The position numbers and the translations under genes are program-made. From the IMG/VR virus record IMGVR_UViG_3300035204_000841, positions 1-20,507 of that record: DNA of 20,507 nt. One strand, 5' to 3'. The notes beneath the pieces were generated by a model that was given only the letters and a program-made list of their open reading frames with translations, made no database searches and had not been told where the DNA came from. Positions 16,085 to 20,507 of this stretch are shown piece by piece (the stretch's first letter is position 1; each line of letters opens with the position of its first letter). Origin of the DNA: a virus.

Positions 16085-17581
16085 TTAAGCAGTCATCCAG
16101 TCTAATCCGTCTCTTAACAGAGGATTTCTGACTGGTTTCTCATCATTTTCTTCGCTATTATGACTAGGAGGGTATATCTTTTTAGTCGCATAATACAGAC
16201 CATCGAGCAAATCATCATGTTTTCCTCTTGGATACATCAACAGCTCATCATGTAAAGCCTGCATATTCTTATCCATAAAAAACTTGCCTTTTGCAAACCA
16301 TGGTTGCATAGTTTCAAGTCGAGACGACTTAGAGTTTCTTGGTGATTCTTTTATTTCTAATCCAGGAACAAATAGGTTTTCTTCTTCACATCTTTGACGA
16401 AGATACTCTCTTAACATCTCTTGATAACCAACAGATTCTATTCGTGTCTTCTCAGGTTTATACTTTTTAACTTGAGTCAAGATTGCTTCTGCTACTTTCA
16501 TAGGGGTAGCACGATTACGATAGTAAGGAAGTACAAATCTATTGTCTTCGTTATCCACAGCTACGGATACAACTACGGAGAAGTCGGCTGTTTGCCTTGT
16601 GGAAGAAGCTGGGTCTACCCCCATGAAAATATTAACAGGTCTTTTTTCATCGACCTTCACACCTTTTAATTCTTTTAAATGCATAACGGGGCCTGCATCT
16701 TCAAATAACAGGGCACCTTTATAATAGTTTATATATTCTTCTTTAAATAGTTGGTCTTCATCACCAACTACTTCACACATATATTCCCTATAAAAGACAG
16801 AAACTCTATTGATACTTTCAAGTTCTGCTTTCTTTTTTATAAGTTTTTTAAGAGGTTGCCATTCTTCCCACAATGCAACCTTTTTCTCAAGGTCTGGTTT
16901 GAATAGCATATTCTTCCAGCCTTCCATTTCTTTTAGTGTTTCCACTATACACCTTTGATGGATAGGAGTTCCTATAATTGCAATACGCCCTTTAATAGGG
17001 TCTAGTGAAGGTATTGCAGATTGTAATAACCATCTAAGGTTTGACTCCATAGCCTCTGAAGTCTTTGTATTATTCTCATCTTCTGGGTCATCTACGATTA
17101 TAAGGGTAGGTCTTTGATTCCCATGCTTAATACCACGTAACTGCTGGCCAGTACCTTTGCATATAATCATACTACCATCTTTTAACTCTATCTCAGATTT
17201 TGCCCAAGATTTTGCAGAGTTAACACCCCAGTACCCGAATAATGACCTAAATTGCTCTGAATAATCAAATACATCTTTAATAGTACCTAATAGCTTAATT
17301 GCATGGTCTTGAGTTCTAGATACAAGCACAATCAACTTAGGTCCTTTATCGAACATTAAGTGATGTAATGGAAACACGCCACCTACTATAGAAGACTTAG
17401 CATGTCCTCTAGGTGCTATAATGTTTAATTGCTTTTGTTTTTCGTTTAAAAGCTCTTCTGCTATCTGATAATGAAAATCAGGGGAAGCAGCAGAAAACAT
17501 ATTCGGCATTACTACCTTGCCGAACAATATCATGTTAGTAGATAACTTCTTTATTACTTCGGAGTGTTGTTTTTTATCCAT
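16085..17581 (-). CDS. terL: Terminase large subunit
   Basis: This 498-residue protein has the packaging ATPase motifs: Walker A-like APRGHAKSS (about 56-64), Walker B LIIVDDPEDEN (160-170) and coupling motif IIGTP (202-206). The C-terminal RNase H-like nuclease carries its acidic residues at MGVDPASS (D323), RIESVG (E382) and HDDLLDGL (D456/D457, D460). It cuts concatemeric DNA and pumps it through the portal. The length is normal. An in-frame TGA lies two codons before the ATG at 17581, so this is the earliest start; it has no strong SD and overlaps the 53-residue gene by 28 bases, implying coupled translation. A TerS-like gene lies two genes upstream. Confidence 0.96.
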   Translation of the reverse strand: MDKKQHSEVIKKLSTNMILFGKVVMPNMFSAASPDFHYQIAEELLNEKQKQLNIIAPRGHAKSSIVGGVFPLHHLMFDKGPKLIVLVSRTQDHAIKLLGTIKDVFDYSEQFRSLFGYWGVNSAKSWAKSEIELKDGSMIICKGTGQQLRGIKHGNQRPTLIIVDDPEDENNTKTSEAMESNLRWLLQSAIPSLDPIKGRIAIIGTPIHQRCIVETLKEMEGWKNMLFKPDLEKKVALWEEWQPLKKLIKKKAELESINRVSVFYREYMCEVVGDEDQLFKEEYINYYKGALLFEDAGPVMHLKELKGVKVDEKRPVNIFMGVDPASSTRQTADFSVVVSVAVDNEDNRFVLPYYRNRATPMKVAEAILTQVKKYKPEKTRIESVGYQEMLREYLRQRCEEENLFVPGLEIKESPRNSKSSRLETMQPWFAKGKFFMDKNMQALHDELLMYPRGKHDDLLDGLYYATKKIYPPSHNSEENDEKPVRNPLLRDGLDWMTA

Positions 17582-17715
17582 TCTTCAACAATAACTGACA
17601 TTGGTGTAAATTTGTTCTTACGCTTATCTTCTTTAAAAATTTCTTTATATTTTTTTTCATAGTCGTTAGACCATGGGATACGGGGCTTGTCGCCTTTTCC
17701 ATTAGAAGCATGCAT
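17554..17715 (-). CDS. Overlapping small protein between DUF3310 gene and TerL, 53 aa
   Basis: A frame from ATG at 17715 to TAA at 17554-17556 encodes 53 residues beginning MHASNGKGDKPRIPWSNDYE and ending EEWIKNNTPK. It overlaps the DUF3310 gene by 14 bases and TerL by 28 bases, so it fills a gap that would otherwise be 120 bases. The 'GKGDKPR' start and a following 'YEKKYKEIF' helix resemble a small recurrent phage protein type with 'KGD..R......Y...Y..IF', usually of unknown function. It is very basic, with Lys making up much of the middle. The tight overlaps support a real, co-translated gene. Alternative frames in the same stretch look non-coding. Confidence 0.7.
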   Translation of the reverse strand: MHASNGKGDKPRIPWSNDYEKKYKEIFKEDKRKNKFTPMSVIVEEWIKNNTPK

Positions 17716-17929
17716 TAGGTATCTCATCATCCTCTAAACGCTTAATAAGGTCATCTATGTACCATTTAGCTTTCTCAAGGTCTTCTATAGTTTTCCCTTT
17801 ATATGGACATCTTACTATATATTTTATAATATTACCTCTAAACCAGTCCATTTTCCATGAAGATATAAAGTCTGTAACTTCTATACCTTGCGTATAATGT
17901 TCAGGGTGATTAACCATATCTTTAGACAT
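17702..17929 (-). CDS. DUF3310 family protein
   Basis: This 75-residue protein contains the full DUF3310 pattern: VNHPEHYTQGIEVTDFI (6-22), WFRGNIIKYIVRC (29-41) and DLEKAKWYIDDLI (50-62). The family is common in phages and is part of or related to T7 Gp1.7-type nucleotide kinases, but most members have no assigned function, so I do not claim an activity. AGAGGA lies just before the ATG. It overlaps the TerS-like gene by eight bases and the 53-residue gene by 14. Such genes usually sit with nucleotide or replication genes, so its position inside the terminase cluster is unusual. Confidence 0.9.
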   Translation of the reverse strand: MSKDMVNHPEHYTQGIEVTDFISSWKMDWFRGNIIKYIVRCPYKGKTIEDLEKAKWYIDDLIKRLEDDEIPNACF

Positions 17930-18665: not shown

Positions 18666-18690
18666 TCTTCTCCGTTACACGTGAACTACA

Positions 18691-18702
18691 TATCACGTGA
18701 TA
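18691..18702. promoter_or_regulatory. 12-base perfect palindrome TATCACGTGATA
   Basis: The sequence is identical to its own reverse complement over 12 bases and centred on CACGTG. A second CACGTG lies at 18678-18683, nine bases from the TerS-like start site's ribosome-binding region. The pair is placed between the upstream inverted repeat and the first late gene, a likely spot for an operator. What binds it is unknown. Confidence 0.5.
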
Positions 18703-18754
18703 AGTAATATACGTATGCAGTATTTTCTCGTGACATACAACACACGTATAACCA

Positions 18755-18794
18755 CTCCTTATGAATTATACCTTAAGTAATAATTCATGAGGAG
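18755..18794. promoter_or_regulatory. 40-base inverted repeat with embedded TATAAT
   Basis: The arms pair over 15 bases (one G-T pair), then two mismatches, then a CTTAAG centre. On the minus strand bases 18770-18765 read TATAAT, a perfect -10 hexamer pointing at the TerS-like gene, but no good -35 is seen. On the plus strand TACCTTAAGTAATA (18769-18782) matches the rightward element TACCTTATGTATGA at 11 of 14 positions. There is no U-tract, so it is more likely an operator over a promoter than a terminator. Confidence 0.45.
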
Positions 18795-18796
18795 GC

Positions 18797-18811
18797 GTGA
18801 ATACTATTCAC
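18797..18811. promoter_or_regulatory. 15-base perfect palindrome GTGAATACTATTCAC
   Basis: Two seven-base arms are symmetrical around a single central base. It overlaps the stop codon of the 78-residue gene and lies two bases from the 40-base inverted repeat. A repressor or other dimeric protein could bind it. It is too short and lacks a U-tract for a terminator. Confidence 0.4.
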
Positions 18812-19044
18812 CTCTCCTCTTCTTCCTCTATTCTATTAAGGCGTTGTTCTAACATACGTGTAATGATTTCACGTTCAGCAGTTAACGCTTGATGTATGTC
18901 CTCTACTGACATGTCACCCATATCACGTACTACAAACGTGCCTGTTTGCATATCAAAGACATCATACGTGTCATCTATATCACGTGTAACGCAGTCACTC
19001 TTGTGTTTCTTATCGTCTTTCATACGGATGAAGTTACGGTACAT
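18808..19044 (-). CDS. Small acidic hypothetical protein, 78 aa
   Basis: Not recognised. The frame runs from ATG at 19044 to TGA at 18808, with a second possible start at 19023 giving 71 residues; neither has a clear SD. The N-terminus is basic (RNFIRMKDDKKHKSD) and the rest is acidic, ending RIEEEEER. The C-terminal half (SVEDIHQALTAEREIITRML) is probably a single long helix. It is the only leftward gene in the regulatory right end, separated from the late block by 142 bases of palindromes. Its coding DNA carries several CACGT/ACGTG words, one of them inside the shared repeat TCACGTGTAACGCAG that recurs at 19128. A small regulator is possible but unproved. Confidence 0.6.
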   Translation of the reverse strand: MYRNFIRMKDDKKHKSDCVTRDIDDTYDVFDMQTGTFVVRDMGDMSVEDIHQALTAEREIITRMLEQRLNRIEEEEER

Positions 19045-19143
19045 TGATTGATAAAGTCAATAGTTTACGAATTTTTTTCTAAAAAATTTTATATCTTTCA
19101 TGTATTGTAGTCTACACGTTATACATGTCACGTGTAACGCAGA

Positions 19144-19177
19144 CGTCAGCTGACGAAAGTTAGACGAAACGACGAAA
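19144..19177. repeat. Palindrome CGTCAGCTGACG followed by three GACGAAA iterons
   Basis: The 12-base perfect palindrome (19144-19155) runs directly into three direct copies of GACGAAA at 19152-19158, 19163-19169 and 19171-19177, spaced 11 and 8 bases apart. The first copy overlaps the palindrome. Short phased repeats like this can be binding sites for an initiator or regulator. Confidence 0.5.
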
Positions 19178-19199
19178 ACTTTACGTAGAATGGGAGTGA

Positions 19200-19317
19200 G
19201 GGATATACATTAGATGTACCCCCCTACGTTTCAGGGTACACTCTTCCAGAACGGTTGAGTTCAAGTTGGTTCGTTCTGTTGAGTGTACTGGAGGTACACA
19301 TCTAATACATCTATCCC
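19200..19317. repeat. Long imperfect hairpin, 118 bases
   Basis: Nested complementary blocks occur in the correct order: GGGATA/TATCCC (19200-19205 with 19312-19317), ATTAGATG/CATCTAAT (19209-19216 with 19299-19306), TACC/GGTA (19217-19220 with 19293-19296), GTACACTC/GAGTGTAC (19236-19243 with 19281-19288) and CAGAACG/CGTTCTG (19247-19253 with 19272-19278), around an 18-base loop. About 33 base pairs are seen by eye, interrupted by bulges. It lies 44 bases before the first rightward promoter-like element. It could be an RNA, an origin structure or a binding platform. Confidence 0.65.
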
Positions 19318-19354
19318 CAACGCACACGCACACACAAGTAATGTAATCCACACG

Positions 19355-19375
19355 TTTTTTATACCTTATGTATGA
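19355..19375 (+). promoter_or_regulatory. Rightward promoter-like element 1 (TACCTTATGTATGA)
   Basis: A T-tract (19355-19360) leads into TACCTTATGTATGA at 19362-19375. The same 14 bases occur, identical, at 19793, 20027 and 20377, each before a small rightward gene. Here the next start codon is 47 bases downstream. No paired -35/-10 is needed to explain it, so a phage-type single-subunit polymerase promoter is a reasonable reading. Confidence 0.7.
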
Positions 19376-19422
19376 TGACATGGTGTTATCAAATTAACGT
19401 TAATTAAATGGAGTTAGATAAA

Positions 19423-19563
19423 ATGAAAATAGAAATCACATTGAAGCCAAGAAAACAACGAACTGTAACAATGGATGGTTCTACTGTTAAGAAGCCATTT
19501 ATATTGGTTAAAGGTATCCTTGAGGGTGCATACAATGGTGCTAAAGGTGCGGTTAAGAAGTAA
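19423..19563 (+). CDS. Small basic protein, 46 aa
   Basis: The frame from ATG at 19423 to TAA at 19561-19563 is preceded by GGAG nine bases upstream; an in-frame ATG at 19408 would place that GGAG inside the gene and is less likely. The peptide begins MKIEITLKPRKQRTVTMDGS and ends GAKGAVKK. It is strongly basic with little acidic content, has an N-terminal strand-like section and a short C-terminal amphipathic helix (LVKGILEGAYNGAKGAVK). No family is recognised. Its own promoter-like element and terminator make it a single-gene transcript. A nucleic-acid-binding or host-takeover role is a guess from charge and context. Confidence 0.75.
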   Translation: MKIEITLKPRKQRTVTMDGSTVKKPFILVKGILEGAYNGAKGAVKK

Positions 19564-19568
19564 ACATA

Positions 19569-19594
19569 AGAGGGGAGTTATCTCCTCTCTTTTT
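19569..19594 (+). terminator. Intrinsic terminator after 46-aa gene
   Basis: AGAGGGGAG (19569-19577) pairs with CTCCTCTCT (19582-19590) over nine positions with one G-U pair and a TTAT loop, followed by TTTT. It starts five bases after the stop codon. Confidence 0.85.
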
Positions 19595-19616
19595 AAACCC
19601 AGGCAAAAAGCATTGT

Positions 19617-19656
19617 ATTACACGTGTACTGTACTCTGACACATGTCACGTGTAAT
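19617..19656. promoter_or_regulatory. Inverted repeat ATTACACGTG / CACGTGTAAT
   Basis: Ten-base arms at 19617-19626 and 19647-19656 are perfect reverse complements, each containing CACGTG, with a 20-base spacer. The right side carries ACATGTCACGTGTAA (19641-19655), identical to 19123-19137 in the divergent gap. The span equals about four helical turns, a plausible site for a dimer of dimers. Confidence 0.55.
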
Positions 19657-19675
19657 GTTTGCTGTCAAACCCTAT

Positions 19676-19765
19676 ATCCCAACAGGACATGCCTCCCCTG
19701 TGTGTTTGTCTTACGAAATCATACAACTTAACGACAAAACACACACAACCCCATGTCCTGGGGAT
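19676..19765. repeat. Long imperfect hairpin, 90 bases
   Basis: ATCCC/GGGAT (19676-19680 with 19761-19765), CAGGACATG/CATGTCCTG (19683-19691 with 19752-19760) and TGTGTGTTTGTC with GACAAAACACACA (19699-19710 with 19733-19745, one bulged A) are nested around a 22-base loop. About 26 pairs are visible. It lies 27 bases before the second promoter-like element, echoing the hairpin before the first. Confidence 0.65.
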
Positions 19766-19787
19766 AACCTGATGTAATAGCGTATTC

Positions 19788-19806
19788 TTTTATACCTTAT
19801 GTATGA
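19788..19806 (+). promoter_or_regulatory. Rightward promoter-like element 2
   Basis: TTTTA followed by TACCTTATGTATGA (19793-19806). The start codon of the membrane protein gene is 20 bases downstream, with AAAAAGGAG between. Confidence 0.7.
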
Positions 19807-19826
19807 ACAACTAAAAAGGAGATAAA

Positions 19827-20003
19827 ATGCTACCGTATCAATCAGAAGATTTACGTTCTTTCAAAGAACTCTATCAAGAGTTAAGACAAGAGCGTGATGA
19901 ATTAAAGCAATTTAAGGAAAACATCACATGGTCTGTGTATGTATTTCTTGCTTGTGCTGGTTTCGCTATGATTTATAACATAGCGTCTAGTATATTATTC
20001 TAA
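19827..20003 (+). CDS. Small single-span membrane protein, 58 aa
   Basis: The frame from ATG at 19827 to TAA at 20001-20003 has AAAAAGGAG five bases before the start. The N-terminal 32 residues are charged and helical (SEDLRSFKELYQELRQERDE), and a hydrophobic stretch of about 22 residues follows (TWSVYVFLACAGFAMIYNIA, near 34-53), ending SSILF. It would sit in the inner membrane by one span with a short coiled coil on one side. No family is recognised. The last base of the stop is the first base of the terminator stem, an extremely compact arrangement. Superinfection exclusion or early membrane takeover are typical roles for such genes, but this is only a possibility. Confidence 0.8.
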   Translation: MLPYQSEDLRSFKELYQELRQERDELKQFKENITWSVYVFLACAGFAMIYNIASSILF

Positions 20004-20027
20004 GAGAGCCTCGTGCTCTCTTTTTTT
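20003..20027 (+). terminator. Intrinsic terminator after 58-aa gene
   Basis: AGAGAGC (20003-20009) and GCTCTCT (20015-20021) pair perfectly around a five-base loop, followed by a T-tract to 20027. The tract runs directly into the next promoter-like element. Confidence 0.9.
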
Positions 20028-20040
20028 ACCTTATGTATGA
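20021..20040 (+). promoter_or_regulatory. Rightward promoter-like element 3, fused to terminator
   Basis: The T-tract of the upstream terminator continues into TACCTTATGTATGA (20027-20040). Any -35 box would lie inside the terminator stem, which argues against an ordinary sigma-70 promoter. The next gene starts 157 bases downstream, beyond a structured leader. Confidence 0.7.
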
Positions 20041-20047
20041 ACAATAT

Positions 20048-20176
20048 AAGGGTAGGAGGTTCAGAGCAGGGGCACGTACCGGCCGTTTTGGATTTCGGCC
20101 GTAATTCTTTACGGAAGTCCGGTGTAAGTTCAGAAATGGACACGTGGTGGTTCAATCCCACATACCTCTTACCCTT
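20048..20176 (+). ncRNA. Structured leader with tRNA-like T-loop, possible regulatory RNA
   Basis: A 13-base closing stem pairs 20048-20060 (AAGGGTAGGAGGT) with 20164-20176 (ACCTCTTACCCTT), with one G-U pair. Inside, CGGCCG/CGGCCG (20080-20085 with 20096-20101) competes for bases with CCGTAA/TTACGG (20099-20104 with 20109-20114), so two folds exclude each other. Near the 3' end GTGG/CCAC (20147-20150 with 20158-20161) closes a seven-base loop that reads GTTCAATCC with its closing pair, matching the tRNA T-arm consensus GTTCRANNC. No D-arm, anticodon arm or CCA end can be drawn, so it is not a standard tRNA. It sits between the promoter-like element and the ribosome-binding site of the next gene, which suits a cis-acting RNA switch or a processed small RNA. 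Confidence 0.55.
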
Positions 20177-20197
20177 TCAATTAAAAGGAGATGAATA

Positions 20198-20353
20198 ATG
20201 AATCAAATAGAAAGAGATAGGGTCAATAGAAAGCTTGACACTGATGAGAAGATTGTAATAAAAGCTTTAACTGAAAAGGTTGCATCTTTAAAGTTTGAAA
20301 TCAAAAGATTAAAAGTTGAAAATGCAAGATTGGAAGGTGAGTTTAAGAAATAA
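20198..20353 (+). CDS. Small coiled-coil protein, 51 aa
   Basis: The frame from ATG at 20198 to TAA at 20351-20353 is preceded by AAAAGGAG; an ATG at 20191 in another frame stops after eight codons. The peptide begins MNQIERDRVNRKLDTDEKIV and continues with regularly spaced hydrophobic residues (ALTEKVASLKFEIKRLKVEN, then ARLEGEFKK). This is a typical dimeric coiled coil for almost the whole length. Nothing suggests an enzyme. Such small proteins can be adaptors that bind and alter a host protein. Its leader contains the structured element described at 20048-20176, so expression may be controlled at the RNA level. Confidence 0.75.
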   Translation: MNQIERDRVNRKLDTDEKIVIKALTEKVASLKFEIKRLKVENARLEGEFKK

Positions 20354-20377
20354 GAGGGCTTCGTGCTCTCTTTTTTT
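20353..20377 (+). terminator. Intrinsic terminator after 51-aa gene
   Basis: AGAGGGC (20353-20359) pairs with GCTCTCT (20365-20371) with one G-U pair and a five-base loop, followed by a T-tract to 20377. It is nearly identical to the terminator at 20003 and again starts on the last base of the stop codon. Confidence 0.88.
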
Positions 20378-20390
20378 ACCTTATGTATGA
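20371..20390 (+). promoter_or_regulatory. Rightward promoter-like element 4, fused to terminator
   Basis: The T-tract continues into TACCTTATGTATGA (20377-20390), as at element 3. The next start codon is 22 bases downstream after AAAGGAG. Confidence 0.7.
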
Positions 20391-20412: not shown

Positions 20413-20507
20413 TTGGAATATATGTTGTTGGAAACTCCAATTCATCCAGATGGTATTAAACTCTATCAGGTATTGGACGTGGATTCACAAGAAATTGTGC
20501 GTGAAAC
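20413..20507 (+). CDS. Small rightward gene, 3' end beyond window
   Basis: The best frame starts at TTG 20413, five bases after GGAG, and stays open to the edge: MEYMLLETPIHPDGIKLYQV, then LDVDSQEIVRET. An in-frame ATG at 20422 is a second choice. The ATG at 20408 touches the ribosome-binding site and opens an implausible Trp/Cys-rich frame. No family is recognised from about 31 residues. It belongs to the same series of single-gene units as the three before it. Confidence 0.6.
   Translation, partial: MEYMLLETPIHPDGIKLYQVLDVDSQEIVRE

Follow-up and report, generated by a model that had tools for sequence, protein, structure and literature searches.

Four copies of a short element in the early region of an uncultured tailed phage are predicted, by comparison with relatives of the phage, to be early promoters, and we regard this assignment as very probable. 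They are probably read by a giant single-chain RNA polymerase (RNAP) of the two-barrel type that would be carried in the virion, a candidate for which is encoded in the longer relatives. The window analyzed here is a 20.5-kb fragment of the phage genome (20,507 bp, the entire record G000). Its late genes run leftward and include members of the terminase, portal and major head protein families. Relatives were reached with the terminase large subunit (16085 to 17581, minus strand; phrog_38, E 1.8e-85), which is 72 to 77% identical to those of the five longer relatives compared; a portal search added L270 to L294, few of which include the early region. Nearby, a 75-amino-acid DUF3310 protein (17702 to 17929) carries the PHROGs label nucleotide kinase. 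No cultured phage is close to this one, and the window DNA had no match among phage records. The terminase found no relative in bacterial genomes, and a search with a 247-amino-acid gene returned no matches. One relative, G004, is 47,249 bp long with repeated ends.

The 14-base element TACCTTATGTATGA occurs in four exact copies, all on the plus strand, at 19362 to 19375, 19793 to 19806, 20027 to 20040 and 20377 to 20390. The preliminary description of this DNA had reported no exact copy elsewhere in the window, and this extends to copies with 1 or 2 mismatches (for the record as a whole, none at up to 1). Allowing up to 3 mismatches gave nine matches against a shuffle mean of 4.56, and the five that are not exact all sit at 3 mismatches. 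A run of T precedes every copy, with TA or TTT immediately before ACC, so the element can be written in a 16-base form as T[A/T]TACCTTATGTATGA. The elements end 47, 20, 157 and 22 nt ahead of a start codon that has a Shine-Dalgarno (SD) sequence, inside the 20 to 160 bases first given. Among the matches listed for other viral contigs (84 lines of 111 stretches), no stretch held the exact 14-mer more than once, and these single copies are best taken as chance background. Across all viral contigs, the 14-mer and TCTCCCKTATGTATGA gave only single copies outside the group, in contigs that, where checked, hold no relatives of the group's proteins.

A divergent region (approximately 19,050 to 19,400) contains a long imperfect hairpin, beyond which the small rightward genes start. 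This hairpin (19195 to 19320, z = -2.7) may have an origin, packaging or terminator function; 6 of the 10 CACGTG palindromes in the window fall within 18678 to 19647, and AGTACT clusters near the corresponding place in several relatives. Element 1 (TATACCTTATGTATGA, 19360 to 19375), the predicted first early promoter, has no hairpin directly upstream and follows a conserved block, CCCAACGCACACGCACACA - AATCCACAC (19316 to 19353, plus strand), that also stands before the first element in relatives, where CACACGCACAC and AATCCACAC are kept. It precedes a 46-amino-acid open reading frame (ORF) starting at ATG 19424 (19424 to 19563) and followed by an intrinsic terminator (19569 to 19593). Element 2 (TATACCTTATGTATGA, 19791 to 19806) lies 20 nt before the SD-start of a 58-amino-acid ORF (19827 to 20003), behind which a terminator (20002 to 20027; hairpin 20002 to 20022, -10.5 kcal/mol) adjoins element 3 (TTTACCTTATGTATGA, 20025 to 20040). 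A 51-amino-acid ORF (20198 to 20353) ends at a further terminator (20352 to 20377; hairpin 20352 to 20372) adjoining element 4 (TTTACCTTATGTATGA, 20375 to 20390), and the hairpins beside elements 3 and 4 are near-identical (repeat D2). From element 4 it is 22 nt to TTG 20413, the SD-start of an ORF that continues past the record end (20413 to 20507). All of these features are on the plus strand, and none of the three complete ORFs belongs to a known family.

Each copy had been described as standing before a small rightward gene, which holds for copies 1, 2 and 4; at copy 3 a structured RNA (20048 to 20176, plus strand) comes first and the ORF only follows from 20198. This RNA is tRNA-like, with a 13-bp closing stem and a T-arm-like GTGGTTCAATCCCAC (MFE -49.6 kcal/mol, z = -3.4), but it had no ARAGORN or Rfam match and no BLAST match to the relatives' loci. 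Rfam matches to mir-4510 and caiA were below the gathering score and were taken as chance. Folded RNAs also lie downstream of elements in G004, L124, L121, L120 and G024, and the early region of L124 holds a tRNA-Ile with the unusual anticodon AAT (228 to 304).

The relatives carry the same element in drifted form, alignable without gaps (TCTCCCGTATGTATGA, TCTCCCTTTTTTATGA, TCTCCTTTATGTATAA). On the early strand it reads TCTCCCGTATGTATGA in L124 and L121, TCTCCCTTATGTATGA together with many TCTCCCTTTTTTATGA in G004, TCTCCTTTATGTATAA in G002 and L120, TCTCCTTTATTTATGT in L195 and TCTCCCTTTTTTACAG in G024. As the preliminary description anticipated for related genomes, these further copies precede many early genes, mostly 13 to 35 nt before an SD-start and nearly all on the early strand. 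Matches to a strict pattern were divided between early and late strand as 9/0 in G004, 4/0 in L121, 3/0 in L124 and 1/0 in L195. A leave-one-genome-out matrix, trained on elements chosen by eye, gave 54 early-strand and 1 late-strand matches at 13 bits or more in seven records, with 2 matches in reversed sequence; the window's own copies fall below this threshold because they have TACC or TTACC in place of TCTCCC. An unseeded sampler is for both reasons the cleaner test, and it recovered CTCCCTTnTTTATG in G004, TCCTnnATTTnTAA in G002 and TGTCTCCCTTTTTT in G024 above shuffles, with TTCTTTnTnTATGn in G001 only marginally above them. No such motif was found by sampler or motif search in the distant relatives G008, G011, G013 and G016, although these have the same kind of giant protein (see below), and G023 showed no motif excess even though its giant protein is of the subtype that the motif carriers have. 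Counting k-mers over complete genomes gave a confounded result, the probable cause being antisense codon bias.

Seven phages share an orthologous first copy with AATCCA.AC upstream, and the element begins about 15 to 30 nt from the first base of that word. In L121, L124 and L195 the first element is preceded by a CCCAAYGCACAC... block with AATCCAYAC, and in G004, L120 and G024 by AATCCA.AC alone. These first copies are mostly ATGTATGA-like and lack a pure T run, whereas later copies are often merged with the U tract of a terminator, and in the relatives the elements often overlap or follow a terminator hairpin. Such a division between first and later copies suggests a promoter overlaid on terminators rather than a by-product of termination. 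Because terminator and next promoter abut or overlap in many places, transcription would stop and restart between genes.

That overlap also lends itself to another reading, in which the elements are the tails of intrinsic terminators or an RNA processing or termination signal. Many copies in the relatives end a hairpin, with CTCCC as its 3' arm and TTTTTT as the U tract, and the virion RNAP of P23-45 has a conserved terminator motif of its own (PMC10770324). We nevertheless consider this reading very unlikely, since the first copies sit in the divergent region with no rightward gene ahead of them and mostly lack a pure T run, the ATGTATGA variants are not U tracts, and in G002 and L120 the element comes after a complete terminator. 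Repeated sites before several genes are typical of regulons as well, and the elements could in principle be operators or leader elements bound by a regulator, the promoter itself being a different, unrecognised sequence close by. Yet the element is not palindromic, and a second promoter would have little room in the gap from the preceding terminator to the SD sequence, which makes an operator very improbable.

If the elements are promoters, which polymerase reads them must be asked, as early genes need one that is already present, whether it belongs to the host or is brought in. The early genes of many phages are transcribed by the host polymerase, and early promoters for host RNAP carrying either the main sigma factor or an alternative one, atypical because promoters of the host are atypical, would be compatible with the weak sigma-70-like pair that copy 1 overlaps (TCCACA - 18 - TATGAT, 9/12). 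Only copy 1 scores in this way, however, and shuffles yield equally many such pairs. Copies 2 to 4 read TATGAA or TATGAG, without the final T of the -10 hexamer, and the four copies share no -35, in agreement with the original observation that spaced -35 and -10 elements are lacking. The element also drifts among phages with terminases 72 to 77% identical, and such drift is more in keeping with a phage enzyme that coevolves than with a conserved host sigma factor, so we judge host promoters unlikely; a phage-modified host polymerase is a possible reader. The preliminary description had proposed promoters for a phage-encoded single-subunit RNAP or for a phage-modified host polymerase. The promoter part is well supported by a repeated motif that is strand-restricted, intergenic, orthologous among phages and placed directly upstream of early genes with SD-starts, whereas the single-subunit class is probably wrong. 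A compact block without separated hexamers does resemble T7/N4-type promoters in form, but a search for the matching polymerase gene found none: PF00940 was silent in 23 records, as was its control, and in G004, whose repeated ends are present, the sole early-strand ORF above 200 amino acids is a 592-residue primase-helicase, so no early-strand ORF is of fitting size and the class is largely excluded there. We regard promoters of this type as extremely improbable.

A better candidate enzyme is a protein of 2,500 to 3,700 residues with a DxDxD motif, encoded on the late strand of the longer relatives among structural genes. A giant late-strand ORF with GADxDxD was present in 14 of the 20 records examined, some of the others being short fragments; all 14 giant proteins found carry GADxDxD, a pattern that was itself part of the search, and a wider search led to 5 loci. 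The DxDxD signature expected of a two-barrel RNAP lies in a conserved block, RVP..SG.R.L.F.G....GADxDxD, which together with upstream lysines is invariant in 13 aligned members. AlphaFold models of the core (pTM 0.66 for G004 and 0.64 for G024) both had the phi14:2 virion RNAP 6vr4 as top Foldseek match (E 1e-9 and 1.7e-7), followed variously by the RDR2, QDE-1, P74, P32 and AR9 polymerases, giving an RNAP-like fold in two models at modest TM-scores of 0.40 and 0.31 by query length. Structure matches in BFVD include giant proteins of crAss-like phages. No sequence match was found in Pfam, PHROGs, PDB sequences or, by tblastn, 50,697 phage records, and the two-barrel identity is accordingly drawn from fold and motif, which argue fairly strongly that the modeled region is an RNAP core. 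The position of the gene suggests that the protein is packaged in the virion. In the window's phage the gene would lie beyond the left edge of the 20.5-kb window, as judged by synteny with G024, G004, G002 and G023. The giant proteins fall into two subtypes, GADKDSD and GADVDGD, dividing G004, G002, G001, G023 and G024 from G008, G011, G016 and others; the element was seen only with the first, within which G023 lacks the motif.

Taken with precedents in other phages, an element that drifts and is not sigma-70-like, in a group encoding a virion-type RNAP, points to early promoters of the giant polymerase. On phage entry, the virion-carried two-barrel RNAP would read the elements, each of approximately 16 bp driving one short early unit, either a small gene or a structured RNA. 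Transcription would begin at or just after TATGA, and a start there would leave a short leader, given the 13 to 35 nt to the SD-starts. More tentatively, these uncultured phages of about 40 to 50 kb may combine a giant virion two-barrel RNAP with modules that fuse terminator and promoter, a single U tract ending one transcript and starting the next, and with promoters and polymerase drifting together. Little is understood of how single-chain two-barrel phage polymerases recognize promoters, and if this proposal is true, the co-drifted promoters and polymerases form a natural series for studying it; as each phage has its own 16-bp element and candidate polymerase sequence, specificity is testable by cross-assays. 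As a way of producing many one-gene transcripts, the overlap of terminator and promoter would be uncommon, and a giant protein without a match in the sequence collections searched would widen the known range of virion RNAPs.

Several known systems offer comparisons. Coliphage N4 also has a giant virion RNAP for its early genes, but that enzyme is related to T7 RNAP and acts at hairpin promoters, whereas no hairpin is common to all element copies here. In the crAss-like phage phi14:2, gp66 (6vr4) is a giant single chain and the best PDB fold match of both models, although identity is about 10% over the alignment with no sequence-level match. The group's genome is about half the size of that of phi14:2, for which no promoter sequence was found in the literature searched. 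Early transcription of phi14:2 is reported to be rifampicin-resistant (review PMC10136315). For the Thermus phage P23-45, it has been proposed that the virion RNAP initiates at an AT-rich motif, one that is confined to relatives having the RNAP fusion (PMC10770324). The resemblance lies in a giant virion-type two-barrel RNAP, gp96, and a motif associated with enzyme-bearing relatives, but P23-45 is long-tailed, its RNAP forms a fusion with the tape measure, and the two core folds resemble each other only distantly. The early motifs of jumbo phages with virion RNAPs are AT-rich and about 10 nt long and vary from phage to phage, and phiKZ and AR9, whose virion RNAPs are multisubunit, likewise place a short, phage-specific AT-rich motif before early operons (PMC7598289). 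In contrast to phiKZ and AR9, the phages described here pair a genome of about 40 to 50 kb and a candidate polymerase in a single giant chain with a 16-bp element that has a C-rich 5' part and is often fused to a terminator.
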